A DNA stretch of 64,000 nt from a virus. The number at the start of each line of letters is the position of its first letter. Position 1 is the first letter of the stretch. The position numbers were made by a program, and so were the translations under genes. Below the pieces are notes generated by a model. That model was not told where the DNA came from. It saw only the letters and a list, made by a program, of their open reading frames with translations, and searched no databases. Of the stretch, positions 8,039 through 54,168 are shown piece by piece. The stretch is from positions 1 through 64,000 of the IMG/VR virus record IMGVR_UViG_3300025168_000053; one strand, given 5' to 3'.

Positions 8039-11000
8039 ATGACAACGGATTTAGACAGATTGCGAACTGATGCAATTATATCCATTCACAAAGCAAGTCC
8101 TTTTGATTTTAAGCATTATGCGGGTCAAATACCAGAAGGTGAAGAAACACCACTTGACACAGCAACCATGCTTGGAGGCATGAGTCCTGAGTTGCCCGAG
8201 TTTAGAATGACAAATCTATCAGCACCAATGGCCGTATCTCAAATGAAGATACCAAGTCATGCTGATTTTATTGCAGGTCATACAAAAGTTTCAAACAGTC
8301 CATTAACAGATTGGCCGATTGCATCTCCTGAAAATCAATTTGGGGAACATCAACCCTTTGGCATGAAATCGAATAGTTGCCCTTTGCTACATGGCGCAGC
8401 ATGGGGCGACCCTGCGTATGCTGAACATTTGGCTCACGCTATGCCAAACCTAAAAGAAATCGCCCAACGTGAAAAACGAATCAATTTTGACCCAGACCGA
8501 TACGGGCAACCAAAAGAAACACTTCATGACTTAATGATACGTGATCGAAATCGCTACAACACTTATTCCGATGAAGAATACCGTGATGGCAAAGTGAATG
8601 AATGGCAAAAACGTTTGGGATTATTGCCTTATTTGTTCGGTCTTGAATACAATAGCGAGGATCAACGTGAACATTTTATTCGACTTATGAAAAAAATGGG
8701 AACAAAGAAAGATTTGAACTCCCCTGATTCAAGAGTCTTGCGAAATAAAATGCAAGAAAAAGCAGGTATCTCTTGGGGTCGAGCATTGCGTTCATTTCGA
8801 GCAAGGTTCATTCCCCTCCTTCAATGGTGGAGAAGGGCAAGTGATCGACATGGGCCAGTCACCCCTGCTCAAATGCCAATGCCTATGATGATGCCAAATG
8901 TTGATTTGATGAAAAGTGACCCCTCCAATGCTGATTTACACTTCGTCAGTCCTTATGTCGAAATGCCGCAGGGAGTTGAAGAATCATTTACGCATCATTG
9001 GTGGGACATATTTCAGCCCTGGGGCGGGGTTGGCCGAGATTACAACTCACTACACGATATATTGAAACAATCATATCCCGAAGTATTTGACAATGGTTGG
9101 TTAGATGATGTTTTGATGAACACTTCAAACAATATGCTTGACACCTATGACTCCGATGGAGGGAGTCATTTTCCTAATGTCACCAACCATCCAGATGCTA
9201 AAGGACATCCCGACCACGCATCTCTTAAATCCAATTTTAACGATGCTGAGTTCTTTGAAAAAAGAAGGGCGAATTGGAGTCATGCTTCAAACCTTCACTT
9301 TTTGCATCCAAGTGAAGTTCAAGGTCAAGGAGGCCGAATGCTTATTCCATCCGACCAAATGATGATGAGTCGTTTAGGTCGTTCATTATCTGGTCAAGCC
9401 GACATGGGTTCTCCAAGAATTGGTATGTTCCGTGAAGAACACCCATCATCGAACCCCACATATTGGGATAATCACAATGCTCTATTCGCAGCAAATGACA
9501 TGCACATGGGTAAAGTGATGAACAATATGGCTCAAAAAGTGATGAAACAACTTGGTTCAGGAATACTCAATCCAGCCGATCCAAAGAATATGGAACAAGC
9601 GACTCTTGCACGTGGCAACTTACAACAACTCGCAAGTGCGGCTGATTTTGCCATGAAGAAAGTCAATATGGGGGATGAATACAGGGCATTAGCCCCTTCA
9701 ATGAATGGAACCGATATGGCAATGCAATTGAAATCAATTGGCCCAGTTCATCCATCATCTTTCGCAACCACCCCTCCGATTTACAATACAGGAAACACGC
9801 ATCTTTGGGGTCATGAAATGCCAGCAACGCTCACATGGAAACATGATCCTCAAAGCGGAGGAATCAGTTTTGGCATGGCCGAGGAACCTTTCAACATCAT
9901 GCAAAGAACCGTTCATGAAAATAAAATAAAAGCAGTTTTACCTTCATTATTGGAATCAAGCATTATGCCAAAGCAAAGAGACATTCATGCTTTATCAGCA
10001 TTAGATTCCAGGGGGCTATCTCCTATCGCCACAGGGAGTATTCTCAAAGCCGAGGACTATGAGCCAACAGGCGTGTTCACAACCAAGATTATTCCAGCAT
10101 ATACAATTCACAAATTAGAAGACATGGATAAGTTGAAGGGATTTTCGGGCGATTGGATTGTTCAAAAGATGCCGCAGGGAAAGCGAATGTTTGTTGAAAA
10201 GAAAGGCAACCATTTGAAAACAGATAAATTGCCAAGTAAAATTAAAAAGCAACTTCGTGAGATAAAAGGCGATTTCATATTTGATGGATATTTGGATGGA
10301 AAAACGCTCAAAGTTGTTGATTTGTTGGTTCATAAAGGCTCGGATTTGCACCTCGAACCTCTTGATGATCGAATCAATGCACTACGAACTCTTTACGACT
10401 CAACAGAAAATGTTCACTTCCCAATGCCAACAAATTGTGTATCAACCGATCATGAAGGTTTGGATAAAGCAATAAGCAATTTTGATGAAAACGAATTATT
10501 GATTAGAGATTCCAAATCAACATTTATGAAAGAAAAAGAAGTTCACCCTAAGTGGATTCGTTATGCTAAGGAATCAATTGCTAAGGCATTCTATCCGCCA
10601 ATGCCTGAACTCATTGTATATCCAAATCAAATCAAATTGGTTTATCCGTCAATTTATGACCCTGTGATTGTTAAGGGTGACTTCGATGGAAAAGGATTCA
10701 ACATCTCATCATTTGAAGGGTATGATGCTATATTCGACAAAGCAAGAAAAGATATTCCATTATGGGGTCCAGTTGCTATTGATTTGCTCAAAGAGGGTGC
10801 TGCGGCAGGTGGTGGCGGTGGTGCATCGTCGGCAGGTGGCGCATCTGGGGCATTTACTTCAAGTGATGCTGGTTCTTATCAACCGCTTCATTCAACACCT
10901 AAAAGAAAGAAGCCACGTAAGTTGAAAATAACAAAACAAACCTTGCTACGTGCGCCATCAATTATTGGTGAAAACGAAGAAGGCGACAATGTAGCCGCTA

Positions 11001-11509
11001 TTATGCAGTTCACACGTAAAGCAATCACTAAAGACGATACCGCTAAAACAACAGAATATCTTTTGAAAAATGTCAAGGGATTGAATAAGAAAATGCTTGA
11101 GATGTATTGCGGTGAATATGGTATCGAAAAAACAGAAGATAGCAAAAAGTGGACTGTGAATCAAGCAATTGATGATGATGTCATCGAAAATATGTTTCCT
11201 CGAATGAATCGGGTTTCACCAGATGGTGGCGCATGGTCTGGCCTTCAAGCGGATATTACCGCACCAAGAGGCCCAACAGAACTTATTGAGGATAGTGGGA
11301 CTACATTTTACGATCCCAAAGAATCCGAAGAGGTTGAAGAGATTCCAATGAAACATTTGCAGGTCAAAGATAACGCAACTGGGGATCAAGCCGTTGTTGA
11401 TATTGAAAATGGCAAGGCAACATTAAGAATGCCTCTAAAAACGCAACAGGGGATGGCTGATGAGCAAGAATCCGAACCTGATGATAGGTCGGAAGCCGAA
11501 GAGATTTGA
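8039..11509 (+). CDS. Large virion-region protein with degenerate DNA-ligase-like domain
   Basis: 1156 residues. The first 680 are a Met/Pro/His-rich region with no recognised fold. They include a DLMKSD stretch near residue 289 that matches the tag core seen elsewhere. Residues about 690-860 resemble the nucleotidyltransferase domain of ATP-dependent DNA ligases: WIVQKMPQGKR at the place of motif I, DFIFDGYLDG then VVDLLVHKG as motifs III/IIIa, and ELLIRDS...HPKWIRYAKE like motifs IV/V. The motif I lysine spacing is wrong and the usual acidic residues differ, so catalysis is doubtful. A Gly/Ala linker (about 922-945) leads to a C-terminal helical region. It sits directly before the prohead protease, which suggests a structural or ejected protein. 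Confidence 0.8.
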   Translation: MTTDLDRLRTDAIISIHKASPFDFKHYAGQIPEGEETPLDTATMLGGMSPELPEFRMTNLSAPMAVSQMKIPSHADFIAGHTKVSNSPLTDWPIASPENQFGEHQPFGMKSNSCPLLHGAAWGDPAYAEHLAHAMPNLKEIAQREKRINFDPDRYGQPKETLHDLMIRDRNRYNTYSDEEYRDGKVNEWQKRLGLLPYLFGLEYNSEDQREHFIRLMKKMGTKKDLNSPDSRVLRNKMQEKAGISWGRALRSFRARFIPLLQWWRRASDRHGPVTPAQMPMPMMMPNVDLMKSDPSNADLHFVSPYVEMPQGVEESFTHHWWDIFQPWGGVGRDYNSLHDILKQSYPEVFDNGWLDDVLMNTSNNMLDTYDSDGGSHFPNVTNHPDAKGHPDHASLKSNFNDAEFFEKRRANWSHASNLHFLHPSEVQGQGGRMLIPSDQMMMSRLGRSLSGQADMGSPRIGMFREEHPSSNPTYWDNHNALFAANDMHMGKVMNNMAQKVMKQLGSGILNPADPKNMEQATLARGNLQQLASAADFAMKKVNMGDEYRALAPSMNGTDMAMQLKSIGPVHPSSFATTPPIYNTGNTHLWGHEMPATLTWKHDPQSGGISFGMAEEPFNIMQRTVHENKIKAVLPSLLESSIMPKQRDIHALSALDSRGLSPIATGSILKAEDYEPTGVFTTKIIPAYTIHKLEDMDKLKGFSGDWIVQKMPQGKRMFVEKKGNHLKTDKLPSKIKKQLREIKGDFIFDGYLDGKTLKVVDLLVHKGSDLHLEPLDDRINALRTLYDSTENVHFPMPTNCVSTDHEGLDKAISNFDENELLIRDSKSTFMKEKEVHPKWIRYAKESIAKAFYPPMPELIVYPNQIKLVYPSIYDPVIVKGDFDGKGFNISSFEGYDAIFDKARKDIPLWGPVAIDLLKEGAAAGGGGGASSAGGASGAFTSSDAGSYQPLHSTPKRKKPRKLKITKQTLLRAPSIIGENEEGDNVAAIMQFTRKAITKDDTAKTTEYLLKNVKGLNKKMLEMYCGEYGIEKTEDSKKWTVNQAIDDDVIENMFPRMNRVSPDGGAWSGLQADITAPRGPTELIEDSGTTFYDPKESEEVEEIPMKHLQVKDNATGDQAVVDIENGKATLRMPLKTQQGMADEQESEPDDRSEAEEI

Positions 11510-11551: not shown

Positions 11552-12895
11552 ATGGCGACCAGTCTTGAACTCCACACCGCATCTTGGAATGCGGAAGGTT
11601 CGGACTTTTTATTGAAGTCGTCTGGTAGTCAAGGCGAACTTTATGTTGCTGGCTACGCATCTGTTGATATGGTGGATAAGCAGGGAGATAGAATCCCAAC
11701 TGCTGCTCTAAAGAAAGCATTCGGTCAATTCATGGATAACAAAGCATTCCGCAACGTTCAGTTGGCACATTCTGGTATTCAAGTCGGTGAAGTTGTTGGC
11801 AACCACACAGACTCCGATGGCCGAGTATGGAAATCAGAAGTGGATGATCACGGACTATTCGTAGTATGTAAGATTCGCAATGATATTCAAAAAGCACGTG
11901 AAGTGCAAAAACAGATTCGCAACGGAGATTTGCGAGCATTCTCGATTGGGGGTCAAGCCCTATTCCGTGTGAGTAAAACCACACCAGAACTTGGCAACCA
12001 TCGAGAGATTACCGATCTTGAACTGCATGAAATTACGCTGTGCAAGAAAGGAATAAACCCAGAATCAACCTACACGATACTAAAAATGGAAGATGATAAC
12101 ATGAGCAATACGGAAACCCTAAATGAAATTAAGGCTGGACTGAACACAGTCCTCAAAGAACTGAGCGAAAAAGCCGATGACAAGGAAATGAAAGAAGAAA
12201 AGTTGTATAACGAAGATAAAACGGATGCCAAAAAATCCTTTGAGGAAGAAGCGGCACTCGAATACATCACAACTCTTGAAAAGTTTGCTCAAGAATCTGG
12301 CGTTGATTTGAATGCGGTTCGTGATCACTTTGGTTTGGAGAAGGCTTACCTCCCAGAACAAGGTCGTGGCGGTTATTCTCACCGAGGACAAGGAGATGAA
12401 GTCGGATCTGGCGAAGGTGCAACCGAGCCATCTTATCCATCTCTCCCATCCCCAAGTGGCAATCAAAACGTCATCAAAGCCCCAAGTGTTCGCCCAATGG
12501 CAATGAACGCACCAAGCGGCAATGAAAACGTTATCAAGTCCTTGACTCCTGAAACATTGGAAAAAGGCTATCGAACTTACGCTGCACTTCGAGATGAAGA
12601 AGCAGTAAAGGGTCTTGTTGAGAAAGAATGGCAAGAGCGATACAATGTTGAAACAACTCAGGCAATCGAGATGCGAAAAGCAAACGATGTTGGCGTTCAG
12701 TTGAACTCTCTCCGTGAAGAGATCGCAATGCTCAAGTCGGAAAATGATACGTTGTCAAAGAGCGACTTGACACCTACAACCCCATCAACTTCAATCCGTG
12801 TTCCAACTCATGCTGAGTTTGGCGCAATGGGAAGCGACCTCGACGGCTGGCGAGCAGCAGAAATGCTCGCTCAACGTGCTTTGCGGGGCGAGTGA
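11552..12895 (+). CDS. Prohead protease fused to scaffold
   Basis: Caspid maturation serine protease of the HK97/herpesvirus assemblin fold. The N-terminal 165 residues hold the protease core, with candidate catalytic His73 (QLAHSGIQVGEVVG) and Ser131 (LRAFSIGG), and a strand YVAGYASVDMVDKQGD typical of the family. The C-terminal 270 residues are acidic, Glu/Lys/Ser-rich and end in helices, as expected for an internal scaffold (delta domain) removed during maturation. Residues 18-24, DFLLKSS, resemble the tag core found in many late proteins and may be a self-cleavage or targeting site. The capsid protein follows at once. Confidence 0.9.
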   Translation: MATSLELHTASWNAEGSDFLLKSSGSQGELYVAGYASVDMVDKQGDRIPTAALKKAFGQFMDNKAFRNVQLAHSGIQVGEVVGNHTDSDGRVWKSEVDDHGLFVVCKIRNDIQKAREVQKQIRNGDLRAFSIGGQALFRVSKTTPELGNHREITDLELHEITLCKKGINPESTYTILKMEDDNMSNTETLNEIKAGLNTVLKELSEKADDKEMKEEKLYNEDKTDAKKSFEEEAALEYITTLEKFAQESGVDLNAVRDHFGLEKAYLPEQGRGGYSHRGQGDEVGSGEGATEPSYPSLPSPSGNQNVIKAPSVRPMAMNAPSGNENVIKSLTPETLEKGYRTYAALRDEEAVKGLVEKEWQERYNVETTQAIEMRKANDVGVQLNSLREEIAMLKSENDTLSKSDLTPTTPSTSIRVPTHAEFGAMGSDLDGWRAAEMLAQRALRGE

Positions 12896-12900
12896 AAACC

Positions 12901-12924
12901 AAAAAATAAATGGAGATGAATAAG
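12901..12924 (+). promoter_or_regulatory. Shared A-rich leader with GGAGATGA ribosome-binding site (capsid gene)
   Basis: The 24 bases before the capsid ATG are nearly identical to those before 14108 (an A tract followed by TATGGAGATGAAT-type sequence and AAG). In the second copy an in-frame TAA separates the leader from the gene, so here too the leader is read as untranslated. This places the capsid start at 12925 rather than at the in-frame ATG at 12910. Confidence 0.7.
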
Positions 12925-14073
12925 ATGACACAAGGATATATCCGAACAATCGAAGACATGGAACGCCTTTACTACGGTGCGGGTGCTGGAACAAACGCAT
13001 GGGCATACAGTGGAACAGACTTACTCAAGGCTGATAACCCATTGATGTCCTCAACATCAGGAACTTACCAAGCGATCTTTGGTCGTAAAGTTTGGTCACA
13101 GTTGAACCAAGAGTTCAACGCCTTCTCAATTCTTCCTAAGAAACCCTGGGAAAAGAGTGGATGGCGTGTCGTGACTGGCAAGCCAACTGATGCTGTCGGT
13201 GTCCCTGAAAACGGTGCGCTTCCAGATTCGACCAAGCCAACCTTTGAAGAAGTCAGCACAAAGCCAAAGACTGTGGCTTCTAAGTTTGACCTCAGCGAAA
13301 CCGCCATGTTCCTTGCAGACAAGGATGATGGACTGGGCGATGCAAGGGCTGTTATCAAGATGGAAATGTCGAAATCTCACGCTGAGAGCATTAACAAAAT
13401 GCTTCTTCGAGATGTTGATACCGTTGCTTCAAACAACTTTGAATCACTTGATCGTGCAACTTCTTCCTCTTTCACTGAACCAGCAAGTTTCGGTGACATC
13501 TCGGCTTTGACAGACCACAACATGTATTCCATTACCCGCAACTCAACTGGCGCAAACAGTTGGTTTGATGCAAACGTGGATGCTGGAACTGCTGGTGCTG
13601 AACGCCCTCTCACCCTGAATGTCCTTGACGGAATGTTCCGCAAGGTCTGGGAACGTGGAGGTCAGCCAAAGGTCATGCTCACTGGATATGATACCATTGA
13701 GAAGATTCAACAACTGCTTCAACCTCAGCAGCGTTTCACTGAAATGAAGCGTGTCACGCCATCCGTGAACGGTGTTCAAGGAATCCCTGGTATGGAAGGC
13801 GGATTTGTTGTCGCAACCTACAATGGTGTGCCAATCATCCCTGCAAAGGATGTTCACGCACCAGCAGGTGGACTATCTCGAATCTATATGCTTGATACAG
13901 ATTACATGTATTTTTGCACAGCAAAACCAACTCTTTACCACGAAAGCGGAATTGAGACTGGCGATCCATTCGGTATCAACCGTCTTGGTCAAGTCGGACT
14001 CTTCCACACAATGGGTGAACTTTGGCAACTCTTCTATGGCGCACACGGCAAGATTCGTGACCTATCCGCCTGA
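12925..14073 (+). CDS. HK97-fold major capsid protein
   Basis: 382 residues that form the icosahedral shell. The position directly after the protease-scaffold gene, the length, and the pattern of an extended N-arm followed by an alpha/beta A/P-domain region (FDLSETAMFLADKDDGLGD, then a long helix with SKSHAESINKMLLRDVD) match HK97-type capsid proteins. Residues 31-38, TDLLKADN, resemble the tag core seen in many late proteins and lie where an N-terminal processing site might fall. The start was chosen by comparison with the leader of the next gene. No separate delta domain is present, in keeping with scaffold fused to the protease. Confidence 0.88.
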   Translation: MTQGYIRTIEDMERLYYGAGAGTNAWAYSGTDLLKADNPLMSSTSGTYQAIFGRKVWSQLNQEFNAFSILPKKPWEKSGWRVVTGKPTDAVGVPENGALPDSTKPTFEEVSTKPKTVASKFDLSETAMFLADKDDGLGDARAVIKMEMSKSHAESINKMLLRDVDTVASNNFESLDRATSSSFTEPASFGDISALTDHNMYSITRNSTGANSWFDANVDAGTAGAERPLTLNVLDGMFRKVWERGGQPKVMLTGYDTIEKIQQLLQPQQRFTEMKRVTPSVNGVQGIPGMEGGFVVATYNGVPIIPAKDVHAPAGGLSRIYMLDTDYMYFCTAKPTLYHESGIETGDPFGINRLGQVGLFHTMGELWQLFYGAHGKIRDLSA

Positions 14074-16159: not shown

Positions 16160-16521
16160 GCAAAAAAGACTCCAACCCATTCAACCCAACAAAGAAAAAC
16201 CCTGATTCTCAGCCGTATAATGAACCAGTTAATCCAAAGAAAAGACAGCCTTTTGCACCAAAGCGGGATGTCGCTGCGGATAAGAAAAATATGGAGAACA
16301 ACATGATGAATGATCCAAAGAACTTTGGTAAATCAAAGGATGTTGTTTTTGACACTTCATGGGATTTGATGAAGTTTGGCGATTGCCCAGTTTGTCTTGG
16401 CGATCATATGGCTTGCCCTACACCTGATGTTCCAATGTCAGCATGTGGGACTCGAAGAAACGCAATTAAACACATGATGCGAGGCAAAGGTGGAAGACCC
16501 CCAATGATCCTCCGCCAGTAA
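16156..16521 (+). CDS. Tagged small Cys-rich protein (FxxxWDLMK)
   Basis: 121 residues starting at ATG 16156 with AGGAGG 10 bases upstream. The first 60 residues are Lys/Asn/Pro-rich and probably disordered. Residues 65-73 are FDTSWDLMK, the recurrent tag of this genome, followed by a cysteine-rich segment (CPVCLGDHMACP, then a further Cys). The tag is internal, between a disordered arm and a probable metal-binding domain. It lies just before the connector gene, far from the main cluster of tagged genes at 39687-42268. Confidence 0.8.
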   Translation: MSKKDSNPFNPTKKNPDSQPYNEPVNPKKRQPFAPKRDVAADKKNMENNMMNDPKNFGKSKDVVFDTSWDLMKFGDCPVCLGDHMACPTPDVPMSACGTRRNAIKHMMRGKGGRPPMILRQ

Positions 16522-39686: not shown

Positions 39687-40184
39687 ATGGGCGCATTTGA
39701 ACAAACATGGGCGTTTATCAAGTTTGATGATGAATCACCAACGCCTTATTTGAGCAATTCTTGTAAGCGTTGCGAAGAACAATACCCGTTAATGCACGAC
39801 CCCGACATACCCCCTTCAAGTCCCGACTTTCCAATACATGAACATCTCGCAACTTCTATGTGTAAAAAATGTCGCCACGATAAATTATCGGAATTAAAAT
39901 GGACTCACGAAAACCACCCCGCACCAGACGTTATTGGCCTTGATGATCGACGAATGCTTAATCACCTTGTTGATATTGGGAAATTAAAGGATGGGCAAGA
40001 GTCCACACAGAATGAGTTGGACTTTTTGAACACCCCTTGTATGATGAGTCAAACACGGTATGAAAATGACAGGGAAGATTCTTCGAGAGCATGGATGAAA
40101 CCTTTGCCCCCATGCACTTGCGGAGGATGCCCACCTCTAAGGTGGTATGAACGAATGCAGGGAATACCAGAAGGGATGGAATGA
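39687..40184 (+). CDS. Tagged Cys-rich protein (N-terminal FxxxWxxIK)
   Basis: 165 residues. Residues 4-12 are FEQTWAFIK, a divergent form of the genome-wide tag, placed right at the N terminus. After it come several CxxC pairs (CKRCE, MCKKC, CTCGGC), so one or two metal-binding knuckles are likely. No known family. It is first of a run of small late genes, 39687-42268, almost all of which bear the tag. It starts one base after the upstream stop and shares the operon of the giant tail proteins. Confidence 0.75.
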   Translation: MGAFEQTWAFIKFDDESPTPYLSNSCKRCEEQYPLMHDPDIPPSSPDFPIHEHLATSMCKKCRHDKLSELKWTHENHPAPDVIGLDDRRMLNHLVDIGKLKDGQESTQNELDFLNTPCMMSQTRYENDREDSSRAWMKPLPPCTCGGCPPLRWYERMQGIPEGME

Positions 40185-40185
40185 A

Positions 40186-40791
40186 ATGAGCGATGGGAAC
40201 TGTTATCAATGCGCTTTTCAAGCACTTATGACTGGAAATCCTGATTGGAAAAACCCACGTTTGATTCATAGCGACATAACGCATTCCAAAACAGGTGAAC
40301 CATATTCTCATGCCTATGTTGCTTATGATAAGGAACTTGAGTTTCCTGAACCGATGCCCGAAGAATGGGGTGGGAACATTCCAACAATGCAATTTGTTCA
40401 CGACCAATCCAATTCATTCAAAGGATCAGGCGATATACCACGTATGTTTTATGAAATGAATGCAAAGCCAATACGTGATACAATGCGTGAATACACGCTG
40501 GAACAAATGATGGAACAGGCAATGAAGCATTCACATTACGGACCCTGGCCTAATGAAGAAGCATTTGGAAAATCATGGGATTTGATGAAATCAGGGGTCA
40601 AACGCCTCAATACCAATAAGAAAGTTCCTATGCCCTGCCCTGAATGTAGGGGTCCGATGGAACATCAAGATGGTTATGTTGGTTCAAGTGGCCGTTATGT
40701 TGAACCTGCCTATATGTGCATGGACCCCAAAACAAGTTATTGCGAAGCAAGAAGGCATGATGTGAAAAGTTCATTGAAGGAGATGAAATAA
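40186..40791 (+). CDS. Tagged zinc-ribbon protein (FxxxWDLMK)
   Basis: 201 residues from ATG 40186, two bases after the upstream stop. Residues 1-120 have an N-terminal CYQC knuckle and a helical region with no named fold. Residues 127-135 are FGKSWDLMK, the tag, followed by a Lys-rich linker and a C-terminal ribbon (CPEC at 151-154, C178, C186). As in other tagged proteins, the peptide separates two structured parts and is followed by Ser-Gly. Confidence 0.8.
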   Translation: MSDGNCYQCAFQALMTGNPDWKNPRLIHSDITHSKTGEPYSHAYVAYDKELEFPEPMPEEWGGNIPTMQFVHDQSNSFKGSGDIPRMFYEMNAKPIRDTMREYTLEQMMEQAMKHSHYGPWPNEEAFGKSWDLMKSGVKRLNTNKKVPMPCPECRGPMEHQDGYVGSSGRYVEPAYMCMDPKTSYCEARRHDVKSSLKEMK

Positions 40792-41132
40792 TGCCAGTCC
40801 TCGACCCCCTAAAAGCCGCTTTGACCGACCACCTCCAAACGCTCATCAAGAAGTGTTCACTTGGTTCTGGGGCTTCCGATGCCTCAAGCCGTGATGGAGG
40901 CGCAGGGAATACAAAGATGAGTCAAAATACACTGGTTCAACGCATTGATGATCGAACCATCTCAGTTAGTGCGTTGTTCGATTCGCAATTGAGCAGCGAA
41001 CAGGCGATTACCGAAGTTGTTCTTCATGGGGAAAACCCTCTTGACTCACCATCCTTTAGGGCAACATTCATGCCAATAAACAAGAACGGCACAAATGAAG
41101 TCCGAATTGATATTCTAATGGAAGTGAGATAG
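40791..41132 (+). CDS. Small hypothetical virion-region protein
   Basis: 113 residues; the ATG overlaps the upstream TAA and has GGAGATGA upstream, and the stop overlaps the GTG of the next gene. The sequence is an N-terminal helix, a Gly/Ser linker and a beta-rich C-terminal domain. It has no tag, in contrast to its neighbours on both sides. Function not assigned. Confidence 0.75.
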   Translation: MPVLDPLKAALTDHLQTLIKKCSLGSGASDASSRDGGAGNTKMSQNTLVQRIDDRTISVSALFDSQLSSEQAITEVVLHGENPLDSPSFRATFMPINKNGTNEVRIDILMEVR

Positions 41133-41485
41133 TGTCCGATAAAAAATCCGAAGAAAAGAACGATGAAAAGATAGCCCCAGTGGTTGCAGGTGCGGCGAGA
41201 GTCGGAGTTGCAGCAGCAAAGAATCCAGCAGTTCGAGGGGCTGTTGGTGGTGCGGTTCAAGGAATGATGAAGAAACGGATTGATGAACCATTTGAGATGA
41301 CATGGGAATTGATGAAAAGCGACGAGAAGGGCGACAACGCCCCAACCAACCCTGGTCTTTGGTCGCAAGCCAAATCAAAGGCACGTTCTAAGTTCAAGGT
41401 TTATCCATCAGCCTACGCTAACGGTTGGGCTTCTAAATGGTATAAATCCAAAGGCGGCGGCTGGAAGAAAAAGAGCAAGGAGTGA
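41132..41485 (+). CDS. Tagged protein with VYPSAYANGWASK family C terminus
   Basis: 117 residues from GTG 41132, overlapping the previous stop. An Ala/Val/Gly-rich N-terminal helix is followed at 54-62 by the tag FEMTWELMK and then SD. The C terminus, KFKVYPSAYANGWASKWYK plus GGGW, belongs to a short basic domain that I recall from many marine virus and phage proteins of unknown function. So the tag is joined here to a widespread viral module. Confidence 0.8.
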   Translation: MSDKKSEEKNDEKIAPVVAGAARVGVAAAKNPAVRGAVGGAVQGMMKKRIDEPFEMTWELMKSDEKGDNAPTNPGLWSQAKSKARSKFKVYPSAYANGWASKWYKSKGGGWKKKSKE

Positions 41486-41490
41486 ATGTC

Positions 41491-41685
41491 ATGGTTGAGT
41501 TGAAGAAAAAAGAATGTTGCTGTGGTGCAACTGAAAAAAACCCATGCGCTTGTATGAAAAAAGGAATTATGAAATGTTCCGCAAAAGTTCCTATGTGTCA
41601 ATGCTACAAAGACCTCAAAAAAGAAGGCAAGCATCCTGATGATTTGAAAAAGGCATTTACCATTGCGTGGGATTATACATTCTAA
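41491..41685 (+). CDS. Tagged Cys-rich miniprotein (C-terminal tag)
   Basis: 64 residues from ATG 41491, chosen because AAGGAGTGA lies 8 bases upstream; GTG 41482 would overlap that site. Ten cysteines within residues 9-38 (CCCG...CACMKK...CSAK...CQC) indicate a compact metal-bound or disulphide core. The last nine residues, FTIAWDYTF, are a variant of the tag, here exactly at the C terminus and lacking the lysine. Function unknown. Confidence 0.75.
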   Translation: MVELKKKECCCGATEKNPCACMKKGIMKCSAKVPMCQCYKDLKKEGKHPDDLKKAFTIAWDYTF

Positions 41686-41696
41686 AGGTGATATAA

Positions 41697-42227
41697 TTGA
41701 TTGACGTTCCTATCGCCGATCTCATCTCAAAGGATTTGAGGCGATGGTTCAAAGAAAAGTGGGTGGATGTTGGCAGTAAGGACAAAGACGGCAACCACCC
41801 TCCCTGTGGCCGTAGTGACGCAAAGACTGATAGCAAAGGCTATCCCAAGTGCCGACCATCAAAGAAGGTCAGCAGCAAGACCCCTGAAACGACACGTGGC
41901 ATCAGTTCAAAGGAGAAGAAGGCTATGACTCGAAGAAAGCGTTCAAAGCCACAGGGCGTTGGTGGAAAGCCAACGGTGGTTAAGAGCGATCCATTTGAAG
42001 CCGTATGGGATTCAATCATCAAAGGTCGCTTTCGAGGCTACACGCAATCAAACATCGGTGACAGGCCATACCGACAGGCCGAACATAGAATCTGGGATAT
42101 ATCCCGTAAAGTCAAACGTGAGCGAACAAAACGACGATATAAGCGCAATAAAAGCAGGGGAACTGTTCGGCCAGCCATGCGCCGTCAATTAGGCGCAGGG
42201 GGCAAAAGAGCCTCCACAAAGAGGTGA
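41697..42227 (+). CDS. Tagged basic protein (WFKEKWVD family)
   Basis: 176 residues from TTG 41697 with AGGTGAT upstream. Residues 12-60 (LRRWFKEKWVDVGSKDKDG, CGR, YPKCRP and SKKT) match a basic domain I know from many marine viral proteins of unknown role, sometimes annotated DUF5872. Residues 100-109 are FEAVWDSIIK, a longer variant of the tag. The C-terminal 65 residues are Arg/Lys-rich and disordered, fit for binding DNA inside a head. Overall a tagged, DNA-binding virion cargo is plausible. Confidence 0.75.
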   Translation: MIDVPIADLISKDLRRWFKEKWVDVGSKDKDGNHPPCGRSDAKTDSKGYPKCRPSKKVSSKTPETTRGISSKEKKAMTRRKRSKPQGVGGKPTVVKSDPFEAVWDSIIKGRFRGYTQSNIGDRPYRQAEHRIWDISRKVKRERTKRRYKRNKSRGTVRPAMRRQLGAGGKRASTKR

Positions 42228-42235
42228 GGCTTGAT

Positions 42236-43438
42236 ATGATTTTTGATGCTGCATGGGATATGATGAAAGCCGACATTTTTCATGAGGGGCGAGCCTATTC
42301 CAGCATGGATGATTTGATGCCTAAATTGAATCAGCAAATTGAAGGATGGGGGGGAAGCAACAAACAATTGTCGCCATTCCCATTCCCGTATAAAAGCGGA
42401 AACTATCGGCATAAATCGTGGAAAGGAATGTCAGATCGAGGGCTTGATGATTTCATAAATAAAAATCCAGGTTTCAAATCAAGCAGCGAGATGTTGCCAG
42501 CAATGATGCCCTGGGTTGGTGGAAAAACACAAATCCAGCCATACATTAGGGGTCTTGCCGATTTTTTCCCTAATGCCCGACCTGCTGAACTTTATGGGGG
42601 AAGCGGTTCGACAATTCTCGGTATGAACAGGGGAACTGGTTTTTATGCAGACATAAACCCCGATAATACTAACGCATTTCAACACTTAAAAGATGGTTTA
42701 GGGGTCGTTGAAATCCCAAAAACAAGAGAGCGTATGGCTGAGATGGTTTCAAGAATGAATGATTTGAGATTTAGGCGTGATGTGAAAGGAGAACAATTGT
42801 CAAGCGATGAATTATCGGAACTCGCATCTCATTACATTGGAACAAATCATCAAGCATTTGGCAATTTGAAATATCCTAATCAAAAACAAAGGAAAAACTA
42901 TCCTGAATGGTATGGTGGTTCACGATATACCGAAGGACCAATTATGGATAAACAAGGATGGCGTAAGAGTTCGGTGAGAGTTATGCCGCACAAAGTCGGA
43001 GGTCTTGATTTGAGCGCATACCCAGATAGGATGCGTGATGTTGAGATTCATACTGGGGATCTTCGAGACACACATAAATTGCTACAAGGCGACGAATACC
43101 TTTACCTCGACCCTCAATATATTGACCGAATGCACCAATATGGAGGTTCGGATGAACAACTATCAGGTGGGGGTTATGACCAACTTCAACGAGACACCAT
43201 AAGGATTGGTGCTGAACATGACGGGCCAGTTCTTTATTCAAATTATTTGGTTGGTCCAAAATCAGGTTTGCCCAACGAAGAGATGATTGCAGATCTGCTG
43301 GATAGTGGTTTCGATGCACATACATGGATGAGAAAACCAAAGGGCAACTCAAGACCCGTAGTTGAAGTTCTTGGATTGAGAAATCATCCTGAACACGTTC
43401 AAAGAGGATTGAAAACAAAAAGACTTTTTGATTACTGA
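42236..43438 (+). CDS. Tagged Dam-like DNA adenine methyltransferase
   Basis: 400 residues from ATG 42236 (GAGGTGA 8 bases upstream; GTG 42224 is the alternative). Residues 3-11, FDAAWDMMK, put the tag at the very N terminus, followed by AD. The enzyme part follows at about residue 85: PWVGGKTQIQPYI (D12-class motif), AELYGGSGSTIL (AdoMet-binding), FYADINP, and the catalytic tetrad as DPQY in YLYLDPQYIDR where DPPY is usual. This is a D12-class N6-adenine methylase by fold. Its place in the late virion block, apart from the other methylases on the - strand, and its tag suggest it is packaged in the head. Confidence 0.8.
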   Translation: MIFDAAWDMMKADIFHEGRAYSSMDDLMPKLNQQIEGWGGSNKQLSPFPFPYKSGNYRHKSWKGMSDRGLDDFINKNPGFKSSSEMLPAMMPWVGGKTQIQPYIRGLADFFPNARPAELYGGSGSTILGMNRGTGFYADINPDNTNAFQHLKDGLGVVEIPKTRERMAEMVSRMNDLRFRRDVKGEQLSSDELSELASHYIGTNHQAFGNLKYPNQKQRKNYPEWYGGSRYTEGPIMDKQGWRKSSVRVMPHKVGGLDLSAYPDRMRDVEIHTGDLRDTHKLLQGDEYLYLDPQYIDRMHQYGGSDEQLSGGGYDQLQRDTIRIGAEHDGPVLYSNYLVGPKSGLPNEEMIADLLDSGFDAHTWMRKPKGNSRPVVEVLGLRNHPEHVQRGLKTKRLFDY

Positions 43439-43548
43439 TGGCGAAGAAAATGGATAATCTGGATAAGGTGTTAATCCCAATTGTCATCGTTGCCACAATC
43501 ATTTGGATTTATTCAATTGTGATGCACCACGAATGGTTGAGGAAATAA
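43438..43548 (+). CDS. Single-span membrane miniprotein
   Basis: 36 residues; the ATG overlaps the stop of the methylase (TGATG). Lysine-rich N terminus, then one hydrophobic helix (residues 11-28, VLIPIVIVATIIWIYSIV), then a short polar tail. It is the last + strand gene, and size plus topology would suit a holin-like or host-membrane protein at the end of the late operon. No further evidence for a lysis role. Its TAA touches the convergent gene at 43549. Confidence 0.7.
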   Translation: MAKKMDNLDKVLIPIVIVATIIWIYSIVMHHEWLRK

Positions 43549-43824
43549 CTAACTCAACGGGTTTTGCACATTACGATCACCAAGAGTCCATCGGAGGGTC
43601 TTGATTACACCCTCCAATGCTTTCTTGTTTCGAGCGCATTCTTTCATCATGTCTTTGTCGCTGTTTTGCTTTGCTTTATGGAACTTGAGAATCCAGTCGT
43701 TTTGCTTAGATTCCGCACGAACTAACATCTGTTCGATTTGTTCCCATGAACGGTCATAGGAGAAGATTTCATGCTCTAATTGCATCATGCGAACAAAGTT
43801 GCCGCATCGTTTCAAGTATATCAA
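43549..43824 (-). CDS. Small charged helical protein at the convergent junction
   Basis: Up to 91 residues from a TTG that overlaps the upstream stop (TTGA); internal ATGs 12 codons in are alternatives. Almost entirely helical and charged, with a possible coiled coil. No family recognised. It is the last gene of the - strand arm and ends flush against the + strand arm. Function not assigned. Confidence 0.6.
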   Translation of the reverse strand: MIYLKRCGNFVRMMQLEHEIFSYDRSWEQIEQMLVRAESKQNDWILKFHKAKQNSDKDMMKECARNKKALEGVIKTLRWTLGDRNVQNPLS

Positions 43825-44969
43825 GCGTGTTGCGAATGAACATAAGTGATATGAACAAAAGCAGCAGGTATTCCAAGCGGTGCGGGATCGAGAAGTGTCA
43901 AATCGCCAGCATTCATAGCGAAATGATGAGGATGAACCAACTTTCCTAAAAAGTTGTTTGCACCGTCAAATACATCCACGCTAACCAAAGGTTCGACCCC
44001 ATCCTCTTCACTTAACAATGGCTTGTAAAGAAGCCCTGCTGGTGCTGCTGCGCCGAAAGGTAAAACCTTTGGCGCACCTGGGGTGAAAGGAATTGCAGTT
44101 GTTTTTGATGTTCTGTGAACGGGAGTTAATTGATATGTTCCACCGCCGCCAGGATGCAAACCAACCCCCACATCGGATTGATAAAATAAGTGAGTTTGAC
44201 CGCCTCCTTGAACTGTGGAAAAGAAACCATTAGGATTTCGTGCAAATAAGACTCCGAGATCGGTGATTGGCAAGTTGGCGGCATTGAAACCTGCGACAAA
44301 ATCATTCCTTAGAGAAGATTCCGAACCGTCGCTATGCTCAATTGCCGACAAAGCAACTGGACCAGGGCGAACAAACACCCTCTTGTCCTCTATGGCGAGG
44401 ATAACAGGCCCAGATGAACCCTTGCCGACTCGAACTGCTGCCAAGACTGTATTTTGTAAGACAAGGTGATTTGAAGGGGATTGAGGGTATAGCCCTGTGG
44501 CAGTATCAACATACGAACCGTAAGTGAAGCCAACATTACTTGGTTTGCGAGGATCAACATAAGCCAAGAGAATTGCCTCATCTCCAGGGTTTGTTCCGTT
44601 GGGTATGGCTGAACCATGATATGTTGATTGATAGTTCGTTGCAGCCGCAATATCCAACACTGAGCCAGAACCGACGTTGAAAAACATTCCATCGAGTTGA
44701 ACTACGCCAGCATCAACATAAAGTTGCGAGGTGCTTCCCAATGTTCCGTTTGGTCGAACACAGCAATTGCCGCTAACAGGGTTGTTTCTATTCGCTTCAT
44801 CATATCGGTTGAGGGTGATCGGAATCACGCCGTTGCCAAGTCCACGTTCAACGTTGTTTGTCAATGATGGGCTGGTAAGGACATCGGAATCACGGAGGCC
44901 ATCGTTTTGATAGGTTGATGCACCCGTAGCCGTTTTTTCATGACCCTCAGCCAGATTGGTGTTAGACAT
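43821..44969 (-). CDS. Putative tail fibre or appendage protein
   Basis: 382 residues, beta-rich with Gly/Asn/Ser-rich turns, low Lys content and no enzymatic motif. The N-terminal VIPITLNRYDEA and QLYVDAGVVQLDGMFFN pattern, followed by repeated strand-turn units and a C-terminal VDVFDGANNF stretch, is the kind of sequence seen in fibre or baseplate appendage proteins. It is the only clearly structural-looking gene on the - strand. The ATG follows AGAGGATTGATTGA. Confidence 0.55.
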   Translation of the reverse strand: MSNTNLAEGHEKTATGASTYQNDGLRDSDVLTSPSLTNNVERGLGNGVIPITLNRYDEANRNNPVSGNCCVRPNGTLGSTSQLYVDAGVVQLDGMFFNVGSGSVLDIAAATNYQSTYHGSAIPNGTNPGDEAILLAYVDPRKPSNVGFTYGSYVDTATGLYPQSPSNHLVLQNTVLAAVRVGKGSSGPVILAIEDKRVFVRPGPVALSAIEHSDGSESSLRNDFVAGFNAANLPITDLGVLFARNPNGFFSTVQGGGQTHLFYQSDVGVGLHPGGGGTYQLTPVHRTSKTTAIPFTPGAPKVLPFGAAAPAGLLYKPLLSEEDGVEPLVSVDVFDGANNFLGKLVHPHHFAMNAGDLTLLDPAPLGIPAAFVHITYVHSQHA

Positions 44970-44973
44970 TCAA

Positions 44974-45354
44974 TCAATCCTCTTCCAATTCCATCAATCT
45001 TTTTATCCTTTCACGCATTTCAACGCTCATGATGTCGCCTTTGTCGTGCATTCGATACTCAGGATTGGGCTTTATGATTTTCCCTGAACCATCTTCCATC
45101 AATCTTTTCATCTTTTCACGCATTTCAACGCTCATGATGTCGCCTTTGTCGTGCATTCGATACGGAGGATCAATCATTTGGGTTTTTCCTGAACCAGCCA
45201 GTGCAGCAATAAGATGAGGCGGCGCACCACCTTTCCCTGCATAGGCATTCATGACCTTGAGTTGTTCTTCGCTCATTGGAGGTTTTAATTCTTCATCATT
45301 CGTGGTTTCCCACCAATCGGCCTTCATCAAATCCCATGCTCTTTGAAAAACCAT
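44974..45354 (-). CDS. Tagged protein with SF1-helicase fragment and 35-residue repeat
   Basis: 126 residues from ATG 45354, which overlaps the upstream stop (TGATG); a GTG at 45366 is the alternative. Residues 3-11, FQRAWDLMK, place the tag at exactly the same position as in the methylase at 42236, again followed by AD. Residues 27-62 (MSEEQLKVMNAY ... ALAGSGKTQMI) resemble the Q-motif and Walker A of UvrD/SF1 helicases, but the rest of the helicase is absent. The remainder is a 35-residue unit, YRMHDKGDIMSVEMRE and KRLME, present twice. Possibly a degraded gene kept as tagged cargo. Confidence 0.75.
   Translation of the reverse strand: MVFQRAWDLMKADWWETTNDEELKPPMSEEQLKVMNAYAGKGGAPPHLIAALAGSGKTQMIDPPYRMHDKGDIMSVEMREKMKRLMEDGSGKIIKPNPEYRMHDKGDIMSVEMRERIKRLMELEED
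44989..45163 (-). repeat. Two direct 70-base repeats, period 105 bases
   Basis: The stretches 44989-45058 and 45094-45163 are nearly identical over 70 bases, differing at only a few positions near one end, and encode the duplicated 35-residue unit. The near-identity at synonymous sites indicates a recent duplication. Confidence 0.85.
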
Positions 45355-45881
45355 CAACAATTCCACCTTTTCAATGCTGCACCTTTCGGAGTCATTTTGC
45401 CACCTTTACTGGTCGGACCTTTGACTCCACCCATTCGAGCGCAAAAAGACTTTCGCCTCTTGGCCTTCTTCGATCCAGCCTTGAGTTTGCTTGGTTTAGT
45501 GGTGACTGGGGGCTTGAGATTTGCACCTTCTTCACGCTTGAACTTGGCTCGACCCTTTGCATTTAATCCACCTTTACGGCTATGCTTGTTTGGGTTGTAG
45601 CCGTGAAATGGTTTTGACTTCTTTTTACCTTTGAGTAAAGCATCAACCAATAGTTCGTCGGACTTTGTAAAAGAACGTTTCCTCCATTGCGAAGGTTTTG
45701 TTGCCCTCATCGTTCCGTATGGTGTGCTTTCAAAGCCGCATCCATCGCATTTAGGAGTTGAGCCTTTTCCATTGCATTGACCGCACACGTGCTTTCCTTT
45801 CTTTGCATCGGGGGTTGGCTTTTTCTCACGCCCAATAACGGTTTTGGTTAAGAGGTTGCAGGTATCGCAATCACACGTCAT
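45354..45881 (-). CDS. Basic zinc-ribbon protein of a marine-virus family (DUF6321-like)
   Basis: 175 residues. The N terminus has a CDCDTC knuckle, then CGQCNGKG...CDGCG, a DnaJ-like pair of metal knuckles. The C-terminal 70 residues, GGLNAKGRAKFKREEGANLK through RRKSFCARMGGVKG to LKRWNC, match a basic domain common in marine phages, which I associate with the DUF6321 label. It contains a weak tag-like stretch near residue 73 (SFTKSDELLVDALLK), too divergent to count. Adjacent to the tagged gene 44974, with overlapping stop and start. Confidence 0.75.
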   Translation of the reverse strand: MTCDCDTCNLLTKTVIGREKKPTPDAKKGKHVCGQCNGKGSTPKCDGCGFESTPYGTMRATKPSQWRKRSFTKSDELLVDALLKGKKKSKPFHGYNPNKHSRKGGLNAKGRAKFKREEGANLKPPVTTKPSKLKAGSKKAKRRKSFCARMGGVKGPTSKGGKMTPKGAALKRWNC

Positions 45882-50272: not shown

Positions 50273-51367
50273 TCACCATAATTTCATCTGTTTAGTTGCT
50301 TTGGGATTATCCCGATTTGAAAGGTCTATTGAATCCAACATATCAATCCTCTCTCCGATCCATCGCATGACTGGAACGGCCATGCTATTGCCTAATGCTT
50401 TGTATCTATGAGTGTCTGGGCATTCTTCAACAGTTTTTCCTTTCCATGCAATCTGTGTGTAGTTGTCAGGGAAGCCCTGCAATCGCTCGCATTCCATCGG
50501 CGTGAGGCGGCGAACCAAAACCTCTTGCATAACCGCAGGTGCGCCATGCCCGCCAGCCGTTCTTAATGGGCAATGCACATCGCCAGTAAGTTCTTGGTTG
50601 TATAAATCAACACCAGTTCCCTTTTGCACAACCAATGCCTCATGCTCAACTCTTTCGTTTCCAGTCCGTGAATACGGTGGACCAGAACTCGTCATTGTTG
50701 GTCCGACTTTTTCACAATGAACTATTCCTCTTCGCTGAGGTAATCCCCTGCTCTCATCTCCAACGCTTCCCTGAGAGAAGAGGGTAGCACCTTTTCTCTT
50801 CGATCTGCTCTTTTTAAGATCCCTGCTGATGCTCGACTTGTCAAATAAAATCGCTGCGGCACTTCGCCAATCTCCATCAGCACATCCGACAACAAAGACT
50901 CTTCGCCTTCGTTGGGGAACTCCGAAGTATTGAGCGTCAAGAACTCGGTATGCGAACCCATACCCGAGTTTCGCCACTTCTCCGAGGAAGGAGGCGAAAT
51001 CTTCCCCTTCGTTTGAAGACAATAAACCTGGCACGTTTTCATAAATGAACCACCTCGGTTGAATGTTCCTAACAATTCGGAGATAGTGAAGGGCGAGGTT
51101 GCCACGTGGATCATCCATTCCAAGTCGCTTTCCAGCATGGGAGAAAGACTGGCAGGGGCTTCCTCCGACAATGAGTTCGCATTTTCCTTTGTATTGAGTC
51201 CAGTCATGTTTCAACACATCCCCCGCATTTGGAACTTCTGGATAATGATGCTTGAGAACGGCTGATGGGAACTCATCGAAATCAGCGAAAGCGACTGGTT
51301 GCCAGTTGAGGTCTTTCCATCCAACAGAACAGGCTTCGATTCCACTAAACAGGCTGATATATCGCAC
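50273..51367 (-). CDS. dcm: C5-cytosine DNA methyltransferase
   Basis: 364 residues from GTG 51367, after GAGGGGAATT. The order of motifs is canonical: SLFSGIEACS (I, AdoMet), DFDEFP (II), GGSPCQSFSHAGK with catalytic C72 (IV), YENVPGL (VI), FGVPQRRRRVF (VIII), a target-recognition region, then RLTPMECERLQGFPD (IX) and ALGNSMAVPV (X). It methylates cytosine in DNA, likely to mask viral DNA from host restriction. It is one of three DNA-modification genes in sequence, together with the adenine methylase and a PAPS-reductase-like enzyme. Confidence 0.95.
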   Translation of the reverse strand: MRYISLFSGIEACSVGWKDLNWQPVAFADFDEFPSAVLKHHYPEVPNAGDVLKHDWTQYKGKCELIVGGSPCQSFSHAGKRLGMDDPRGNLALHYLRIVRNIQPRWFIYENVPGLLSSNEGEDFASFLGEVAKLGYGFAYRVLDAQYFGVPQRRRRVFVVGCADGDWRSAAAILFDKSSISRDLKKSRSKRKGATLFSQGSVGDESRGLPQRRGIVHCEKVGPTMTSSGPPYSRTGNERVEHEALVVQKGTGVDLYNQELTGDVHCPLRTAGGHGAPAVMQEVLVRRLTPMECERLQGFPDNYTQIAWKGKTVEECPDTHRYKALGNSMAVPVMRWIGERIDMLDSIDLSNRDNPKATKQMKLW

Positions 51368-52388: not shown

Positions 52389-52939
52389 TTATCCCCCTCC
52401 TGAAAAAGAGTCGTTTGTTTTGCCGATGGGTAATTTGCTTTATCGCCTTTCACTTCAAGTGTCACGATTGTATCATTATGGTTGCCACCGTGACATACAA
52501 GCAATATGCGCTCTATTTTGAAATCGAGTGTCAAACCAATACCGCAGGTATTCCATCCAAATGATATGACTTTTCCACCAGGTCTTACTATTCTGGCTAT
52601 TTCTTTTTTCCAATTCGACCAAACCGAACTTTTTGTATCATGGAGAGGGATTCCTATTTTATCATACACCTCCTTAATTTGACGTGGGGAATAGGGAGGA
52701 TCAAAAAGAACTCCGTCAAGGGAATCATTCTCAAAAGTTTTCAAAAAGTCCAATGCTTCCAAATTAGATTGGGCTTTGGTGTTGGGATTAAGATCGTTTG
52801 TGTATTTCGCCAAATCTGTATTCCTTGCGAATGGATCAGCCCATTCCTCCCCTTTGATTTCTTCCTCCAAAAACAATTTTATTGGTTGGATTGAAAATGT
52901 AAGTGCATTTGGCATTGACCATGATCTATCAATTTTCAT
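52385..52939 (-). CDS. Adenine-specific DNA methyltransferase
   Basis: 184 residues from ATG 52939. It has the AdoMet-region pattern (LTFSIQPIKLF, ADPFARNTDLAKYTNDLNP) and the catalytic DPPY in GVLFDPPYSPRQI, followed by RPGGKVISFGW, typical of compact N6-adenine or N4-cytosine methylases found in phages. It is shorter than full R-M methylases and has no clear target-recognition domain. It overlaps genes on both sides. Specificity cannot be read from sequence. Confidence 0.85.
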   Translation of the reverse strand: MKIDRSWSMPNALTFSIQPIKLFLEEEIKGEEWADPFARNTDLAKYTNDLNPNTKAQSNLEALDFLKTFENDSLDGVLFDPPYSPRQIKEVYDKIGIPLHDTKSSVWSNWKKEIARIVRPGGKVISFGWNTCGIGLTLDFKIERILLVCHGGNHNDTIVTLEVKGDKANYPSAKQTTLFQEGDK

Positions 52940-53909
52940 CAAAAGACCCCCCTACAATATCACAGGTGATGTCCTCTTCTGGCTCAAGCAATACTTCGCA
53001 AGCGGTTGGTTCTTCATCAATGAACTTCTCATCAATACGTTCTATCGCATCATCGCTGTCAAAATCCTCTAACTTCATTTGACCGAGAGCAGTAAAAGAA
53101 ACCGCTTTGCATGATTTACAATCGAACTTTCCTTTCTTTGATGGGGGTTTGTAGCCTTTCTTGAATCGTTCTTCCAATTCTTCAAGCAAATAACCATCCT
53201 TTCCAGGCTTCATGGATCGGAGGCCATGATTGCTCACTTTTACGCTCTCCTTATCCCAGTGCTTGGCTATCTCCCAAAAATCAGGATAGCCACGCCATAG
53301 ATTCCACCATGATTCAAGCGGTTGCTTGATGCAATGGAAGCATCCTAAGCGGTCAAAGTGAACGTAAAGTTCGTTCACCATTTCGAGTCCATCAAGGTAT
53401 TCAATGCAATCCTTCTCAGTCCATCCCCATTCAACCAATGGGTATCTGTTCTTGGCGTTGCGTGGATCATCCTCTTTTCCGACACGGTGCGCTTCATCAG
53501 CAGCGATTCCAATGTATGCAAAATCCGCTTCCTTAGCGACTTTCTGTAAAGGCTGAACCTTTGCTTCTCTCGCCCAGTAGCAAGGATATGCTCGAAGAGG
53601 TGCGCCACGTTGTTTTCCTTTGTTGTTGCCCCTTTTCATCACGCCATAGAACCATTCATCCCAGGTCTTAGGCGAGCCGACCATCTCAAGTTCAAGGTTC
53701 TTTTCAGGATATTTCATGTTAATATATTTCATGACCTCTTTCATGTAGTCAAGCAATTCGGGGAACTCAAATCCTGTATCGGCAAAGACAATTCGATTGA
53801 CGGGCATATCGGGGTCGTTCAATTCCAACATACGCAGCAACATAGCGGTGCTATCCTTACCGCCTGAAAAACAAACCAAACCGATCTTCTCATCCATAAT
53901 ATCAATCAT
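52929..53909 (-). CDS. PAPS-reductase-like PP-loop enzyme
   Basis: 326 residues from ATG 53909, with M at 53897 also possible. The N-terminal PP-loop SGGKDST identifies the PAPS reductase/ATP-sulphurylase superfamily that activates a substrate with ATP. Downstream are GIAADEAHR, GCFHCIKQP and a C-terminal CKSC pair. Members in phages and mobile elements are thought to serve sulphur chemistry or nucleic-acid modification such as the DndC step of DNA phosphorothioation. The other dnd genes are absent here. It sits beside two DNA methylases, so DNA modification is the leading guess. Confidence 0.8.
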   Translation of the reverse strand: MIDIMDEKIGLVCFSGGKDSTAMLLRMLELNDPDMPVNRIVFADTGFEFPELLDYMKEVMKYINMKYPEKNLELEMVGSPKTWDEWFYGVMKRGNNKGKQRGAPLRAYPCYWAREAKVQPLQKVAKEADFAYIGIAADEAHRVGKEDDPRNAKNRYPLVEWGWTEKDCIEYLDGLEMVNELYVHFDRLGCFHCIKQPLESWWNLWRGYPDFWEIAKHWDKESVKVSNHGLRSMKPGKDGYLLEELEERFKKGYKPPSKKGKFDCKSCKAVSFTALGQMKLEDFDSDDAIERIDEKFIDEEPTACEVLLEPEEDITCDIVGGSFDEN

Positions 53910-54168
53910 CCGTGTATGTCTTAACGACCACATCATATTCAAGTTTGGCTTCATCAAGACGTTTCTTAACGTGTTTCACAGCATCCTCTCTTGAGATTTC
54001 GTCGCTATGTCGTAGCGACCAGTCTAAGAACCAATCATAGCCCTTAGCACCATATCCTGTATCGAAAGAGATTTTGTGGTCATCAATCAACTGGCCTCGG
54101 ACACGAAACGCATCTTCCATGTCGCCAGATGTGATGGTAATTTGGCAACCTATTTTGACAGAAACCAT
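53902..54168 (-). CDS. Small hypothetical protein
   Basis: 88 residues from ATG 54168, whose A is the last base of the upstream stop (TGATG); GGTGAAGAAGTG lies upstream. Alpha/beta, with an N-terminal strand pair and a long C-terminal basic helix. No family recognised. A longer ATG 60 bases further back is rejected because it would lie within the upstream gene's last codons without a ribosome-binding site. Confidence 0.7.
   Translation of the reverse strand: MVSVKIGCQITITSGDMEDAFRVRGQLIDDHKISFDTGYGAKGYDWFLDWSLRHSDEISREDAVKHVKKRLDEAKLEYDVVVKTYTDD

Follow-up and report, generated by a model that had tools for sequence, protein, structure and literature searches.

The 64,000-nucleotide stretch analysed here (the window) covers positions 1–64,000 of the IMG/VR virus record IMGVR_UViG_3300025168_000053, which is 80,261 bases long, and several of its genes encode a short peptide of the approximate form FxxxWDhhK (h, hydrophobic residue), hereafter the tag. 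An earlier note on the window had listed eight such peptides, and the translations of all eight were found to be exact at their coordinates. Seven were retained as tags, six of them with scores of 20–33 bits against the position matrix described below and one as a variant. Three of the seven are N-terminal. A Cys-rich protein (open reading frame (ORF) 39687–40184) opens with MGAFEQTWAFIK (39687–39722, + strand, 20.1 bits), in which FEQTWAFIK begins at 39696 and Phe occupies its canonical position, residue 4. A D12-class adenine methylase (ORF 42224–43438, likely start ATG at 42236; MethyltransfD12 28.7 bits, cut-off 22) begins with M-I-FDAAWDMMK/AD (42236–42268, + strand, 26.5 bits; here and below the slash stands after the tag's Lys or at a predicted cut), and a 130-residue protein without a confident family (ORF 44974–45366) with M-V-FQRAWDLMK/AD (45322–45354, − strand, 31.0 bits). 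As the earlier note had observed, the tag of the last two proteins starts at residue 3.

The four other tags lie inside proteins, all on the + strand. FGKSWDLMK/S (40564–40590, 29.2 bits) stands upstream of a Zn-ribbon-like module in ORF 40147–40791, and FEMTWELMK/SD (41291–41317, 25.0 bits) upstream of a DUF5872-like basic module in ORF 41132–41485. In the head-tail gene region, FDTSWDLMK/F (16348–16374, 33.2 bits) precedes a Zn-ribbon-like module, an arrangement also found in three related genomes (G001, G002 and G004). The fourth, FEAVWDSIIK/GRFRGY (41994–42023), is one residue longer, scores 7.1 bits and lies within a basic DUF5872 protein (ORF 41697–42227; DUF5872 above the cut-off), of which G001 encodes an identical copy; it was accepted because the longer variant is itself enriched (40 copies versus 0.5 in shuffles). 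The remaining listed peptide, FTIAWDYTF at 41656–41682 (+ strand), was rejected: it scores 7.0 bits, lacks Lys and sits at a C-terminus, and is probably a chance match. The host protein that had been taken for a helicase fragment shows no confident family, the match to GP88 being below threshold. A six-frame scan of the window revealed a single additional site of at least 8 bits, out of frame with the local gene.

Related viruses were collected by a search of IMG/VR with the major capsid protein (MCP), which yielded 136 related stretches. Over 24 related virus records, the DNA pattern encoding F...W[DE]hhK gave 69 matches, compared with 0 for the same pattern reversed. A position matrix was run over 25 genomes, with genes called by a simple hexamer caller and shuffles as control, and detected 191 sites of at least 12 bits versus 1.0 per shuffle; after two recurrent false hits had been removed, 185 tags remained in 182 proteins (87 sequence clusters). 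Since the matrix had been trained on pattern matches from the same 25 genomes that it scanned, the reversed pattern and a second MCP subgroup serve as cleaner tests. The latter, four genomes outside the training of the matrix yet themselves discovered via the tag, added 19 tags, with about 1 expected from shuffles. These counts and that of the six-frame scan rule out a chance origin, and the existence of the tag is nearly certain.

The usual form is a 12-residue leader at the start site, M[TS]AF[DE]xAW[DE][LIV][LMV]K, and a genome may encode up to about 16–18 tagged proteins. The motif FxxxWD[LM][LM]K[AS] proposed in the earlier note is thus real, yet wider than it was written: position 6 need not be Asp or Glu, the two hydrophobic residues vary, Lys is nearly fixed, and the next residue, given as Ala or Ser, is most often Ala, Met or Ser. 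The claim that the tag is carried by otherwise unrelated proteins was confirmed, but its commonest position had been missed, as 139 of the 185 tags lie within the first 25 residues. Random frequency in unrelated proteins and absence from related viruses, which the note had named as outcomes that would speak against it, were not what the counts in related viruses and their reversed-pattern and shuffle controls showed. The finding is larger than first described.

The internal copies were compared with the N-terminally tagged proteins. For many of the 50 internal tags examined, the segment after the tag aligns with the post-tag part of a stand-alone protein, and these alignments most often begin by pairing residue 1 with residue 1. 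For instance, in a 577-residue protein (G007_50) the domain after the internal tag is the one that follows the N-terminal tag of G008_46. Within the window, the sequence after the tag at 41291 aligns from residue 1 with the stand-alone tagged proteins G003_81 and G023_31, and the module after the tag at 41994 aligns 1:1 with the N-tagged proteins G009_29, G011_29 and G014_34. By these alignments, internal tags mark exact module boundaries after Lys. The residue that follows (P1', if Lys is P1 of a cleavage site) is enriched in Ala (3.7-fold), Met (5.1-fold) and Ser (1.9-fold), and the excess of Met is easily accounted for if a captured domain kept its former start codon. In 17 tags, P1'P2' is AD or SD, resembling the K/AD of the MCP described below. 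Internal tags of several genomes, including G000 (the virus of the window), G003, G006, G007 and G024, are often preceded by [FY]xAS[ED]D, as in FTASEDPFEIAWD, which is a possible second signal. Just beyond the window, the same virus encodes further tagged proteins at 75629–76684 and 78312–79466; one has two tags, and the other combines in one chain a Zn-ribbon-like stretch and a kinase-like domain with an internal tag.

Sites similar to the end of the tag were found in three proteins of the head gene region. The MCP (12910–14073, + strand; SU10/HK97 type, phrog_24667) has HVTV-1 and HCTV-1 of the Druskaviridae as its nearest named relatives (about 32% identity) and contains a predicted maturation site, GTDLLK/AD (13012–13035), preceded by a pro-region of about 40 residues, with K40-A41-D42 invariant in every MCP group compared. 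The site reads DLLK/[AS]D in 25 of 25 orthologues. Even HVTV-1 and HCTV-1 keep K-A-D unchanged (MSK/AD and VSK/AD, at 34–36% identity), although the neighbouring residues differ, and the corresponding site in a distant archaeal metagenome-assembled genome (locus L308) is IAK/AD. In several MCP genes of the second subgroup (G030, G035, G039, G040, G044, G066 and G068), one stop was reported inside the matched span. Directly upstream of the MCP gene lies that of a Peptidase_S78 prohead protease (11552–12895, + strand; PF04586 44.2 bits, cut-off 21; phrog_23555, head maturation protease). Near its N-terminus there is a predicted autoprocessing site, GSDFLLK/SS (11597–11623), of the form DF[LI]LK across orthologues, with Lys in 24 of 24 and [ASG] at P1' in 92%. 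The long C-terminal region of the protease is possibly a scaffold; its residues 304–331 and 399–406 hold repeated GNxNVIK and LSK/SD-type sites, kept in orthologues, and the region is perhaps cut into pieces. The third protein, of 1156 residues (8039–11509, + strand), has no Pfam match and carries a predicted processing site, GSILK/AED (10034–10057), between two regions, where K/[AS] is preserved in 23 of 23 orthologues within a variable linker. Stretches in its C-terminal half look ligase-like by eye. The segment 7008–8027 encodes two tandem Cys-rich repeats, YCQKxFxCxYSxCxxKQKAxCDRECGKEL, also without a Pfam match.

Judged by these alignments, the end of the tag, hxK/[AS], is the kind of site that is conserved in the MCP, the S78 protease and the 1156-residue protein, and we propose the protease as the enzyme that would process the tags. 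The pattern [ILMVF]xK[AS][DE] occurs 12 times more often than in shuffled sequences in the protease, 10 times in the MCP and 4 times in the 1156-residue protein, compared with 1.8 times in other proteins and no occurrence in either the terminase or the tape measure protein.

The tagged proteins are mostly short (median 214 residues), and many are predicted to be enzymes that modify the host. A search of 85 cluster representatives against Pfam, PHROGs and NCBIfam named only DNA methylases (D12 and C5) and DUF5872/DUF6321 proteins, together with a small number of Zn-binding or weak models and several PHROGs without a name; ten further proteins had no Pfam match. Against phage records, the tagged methylase of the window gave no match, and the DUF5872-like protein matched just a 30-residue stretch in Synechococcus phages. 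Three more assignments, all of expanded families, derive from profiles and folds. One family is predicted to be ADP-ribosyltransferase (ART)-like: its profile hits Tpt1/KptA (5.6e-5) and DarT (0.004), a YHGT motif corresponds to the first NAD-binding motif, and 18 of the top 20 Foldseek fold hits of its model (predicted local distance difference test (pLDDT) 84) are Tpt1/KptA. In this model the tag forms a separate helix (residues 3–11), and the domain begins at residue 14–15. The family is diverse (mean column identity 19%), and the majority of its invariant or near-invariant residues lie in the tag (A3, F4, A7, W8 and K12). Conservation is likewise concentrated in the tag in a kinase-like and a GNAT-like family. 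For the former, a sequence profile search found nothing; the Foldseek top hits of the model (pLDDT 81.5) are nearly all of kinase fold, with E-values down to 1e-4 and low template-modelling (TM) scores, residues K74, D153, N158, D162 and D171 are conserved, and residues 1–12 stay outside the fold with pLDDT below 50. The GNAT-like family conserves a YRRRGYATA motif (R-R-x-G-x-G/A type), and its weak profile hits in PDB (best 0.014) are nearly all acetyltransferases. The replication-side module of the window also encodes, without a tag, a C5 cytosine methylase recognised by motif (50273–51367, − strand) and an SGGKDS-motif protein resembling, by eye, phosphoadenosine phosphosulphate reductases (52929–53957, − strand).

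Tagged genes share the orientation of the MCP gene in 93% of cases, compared with 65% for other genes (p about 1e-17), and often form a block before the terminase gene; this orientation suggests that they are late genes, as the earlier note had called them. MTAFDxAW also occurs in 45 additional records. This MCP or terminase is encoded in 35 of them; most of the others are fragments, some of which contain clear cargo genes, and three appear to be chance matches. The tag hardly occurs outside viruses that have this MCP or terminase. A relative was found on a 106-kb contig, L307 (CACGHY010000002.1), of the Poseidoniales single-cell genome AG-422-I20. This points to Poseidoniales as the host, and they are likely to be the host of the lineage, although it is one cell and the contig could stem from a co-sorted particle. 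Use of the tag by the host itself was rejected, since the 1.2-Mb genome contains one relaxed-pattern match outside the virus contig. We take the tag-bearing viruses to form one family, with tails and marine archaeal hosts.

The earlier note had taken the peptide for a capsid-targeting and/or maturation-cleavage signal. The resemblance of its end to the MCP and protease sites, the module boundaries, the type of cargo, the co-orientation with the MCP gene and the near restriction to one MCP lineage all lend this reading indirect support, and we consider it likely that the tag is a leader by which cargo is loaded into the head, cut free and injected. FxxxW is absent from the sites of the structural proteins, so it is likely to be the targeting half of the tag and hhK the cutting half. 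As an amphipathic helix, the FxxxW part would bring the fused protein into the assembling head, where it may bind the portal, the pro-region of the MCP or the possible scaffold at the C-terminal end of the protease. In the prohead, the S78 protease would cut after Lys at h-x-K/[A/S/M], a type of site that it would also use in maturing the MCP and itself, as the shared and conserved sites suggest. Internal tags would split multidomain precursors into several separate cargo proteins. The freed proteins would remain among the DNA, enter the host cell with it and act there early, through modification of host proteins by the ART-, acetyltransferase- and kinase-like enzymes, DNA methylation and nucleic-acid binding. 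Such a cargo list is a good fit, because the packaging of ARTs in heads is a wider theme among phages (PMC9503650).

Several observations weigh against such a leader. No tag of at least 12 bits was found in the 47–48 kb late stretches of HVTV-1 and HCTV-1 that were scanned, though the capsid site is present. Two related genomes, G019 and G021, have no tags at 14 bits, and some contigs have few, perhaps because these contigs are incomplete. P1' is not strict, Asn, Gly, Glu, Phe and Asp also being present. The sites of the structural proteins lack FxxxW, and with it a counterpart of the likely targeting half. The counts behind the site enrichment rest on related orthologues, which are not independent, and include hits in folded domains, for which reason we treat this enrichment as supporting evidence only. 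The TM-scores are modest, about 0.45 for the ART-like model and 0.3–0.4 by query length for the kinase-like one.

Other explanations of the tag were also considered. It could be a docking helix that holds proteins in the head or on the capsid lining and is never removed, the K-ended core being part of the helix. FxxxWxxhK is plausible as an amphipathic helix, as residues 3–11 of the ART model illustrate, and the variable residue after Lys would be expected in this case; however, the exact 1:1 module boundary after Lys, the enrichment of Met at that very position, and the conservation of hxK/[AS] in the MCP and the protease together with the presence of an S78 protease argue against it, making a helix that stays in place unlikely. 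If the tag instead recruited proteins to another location late in infection, such as a host factor or an assembly centre of the virus, and had no role in the virion, this would leave unexplained both the matching sites in the MCP, the protease and the head-region protein and the near restriction to this MCP lineage, and the scarcity of the pattern in the Poseidoniales genome also speaks against it. Other systems do have short helical docking motifs of a similar general shape, which gives the idea some plausibility, but we regard it as quite improbable.

The proposal that tagged proteins are diverged paralogues, or that what the genes share is an RNA or DNA element at their starts and the peptide itself is without function, is largely refuted and hardly credible. 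It draws on the expansion of several tagged families within one genome and on the prevalence of the tag at gene starts. Nevertheless, the tag is carried by predicted unrelated folds and shows stronger conservation than the domains that follow it. Synonymous codons are mixed at its F, A, D, L and K positions (Phe is TTT or TTC, Lys is AAA or AAG, and the small residue and the hydrophobic ones use many codons), and 187 tags comprise 180 distinct DNA versions. This mixing and the internal copies far from any start codon rule out a nucleotide element.

With the leader for capsid targeting and cleavage as the preferred explanation, a broader picture is also probable, in which viruses of Poseidoniales use a general code for cargo: whatever protein is acquired downstream of FxxAWDLhK would be packed into the head, released by a cut after Lys and injected. 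Each virus would then have an exchangeable set of up to about 16–18 effectors that act on the archaeal cell before viral gene expression. Should this hold, the tag would be, to our knowledge, the first leader for capsid loading in an archaeal virus, and it would allow the injected proteins of uncultured Poseidoniales viruses, predicted host-modifying enzymes among them, to be listed by a sequence rule. The exact cleavage sites predicted are before Ala41 of the MCP, before Ser23 of the protease and after Lys of every tag.

In the literature searched, no description of this motif was found, and the known systems resemble it only in part. The Druskaviridae HVTV-1 and HCTV-1 have the same K-A-D site in the MCP and differ by the lack of a tag in the late stretches scanned. 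For HK97, no leader that targets cargo proteins is known to us. The likeness to HK97-type maturation lies in a prohead serine protease and in the predicted Lys at P1 with a small P1' residue: the HK97 MCP is cut at K103/S104 (PMC10275583), and the viruses described here have a Peptidase_S78 domain and predicted cleavage sites. In phage P1, the N-terminal 30 residues of DarB suffice to direct a foreign protein to the capsid (PMC9024508); that signal was described for one 250-kDa protein, whereas here one peptide is common to dozens. Polyvalent proteins and MuF-fused effectors are similar in that ARTs and other host-modifying enzymes are predicted to be packaged and injected, with genes near the head genes (PMC5512222, PMC9503650). 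Their effectors are joined in a single polypeptide or attached to head proteins, while here mostly separate proteins share a leader; polyvalent proteins have several effector domains per polypeptide, and most tagged proteins are short, with some fusions seen at internal tags.

The closest parallel is the capsid-targeting sequence (CTS) of T4, a short shared N-terminal leader on the otherwise diverse internal proteins and on Alt, an injected ADP-ribosyltransferase (PMC3012670, PMC5694885, PMC5512222). Entry into the prohead and removal of the leader by the prohead protease, as proposed here, would be a further likeness. The differences are the motif itself (FxxxWDhhK), the up to about 16–18 tagged proteins per genome, the copies at internal junctions and the archaeal viruses that carry them. 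Moreover, T4-type and giant-phage proteases cut after Glu (PMC5694885), whereas the proposed P1 residue is Lys in nearly all tags; for this reason we do not file the tag as a T4 CTS, though it may work like one. If the proposed function is correct, the cargo repertoire of these viruses would be larger than that of T4, for which at least eight internal proteins are known (PMC9503650).

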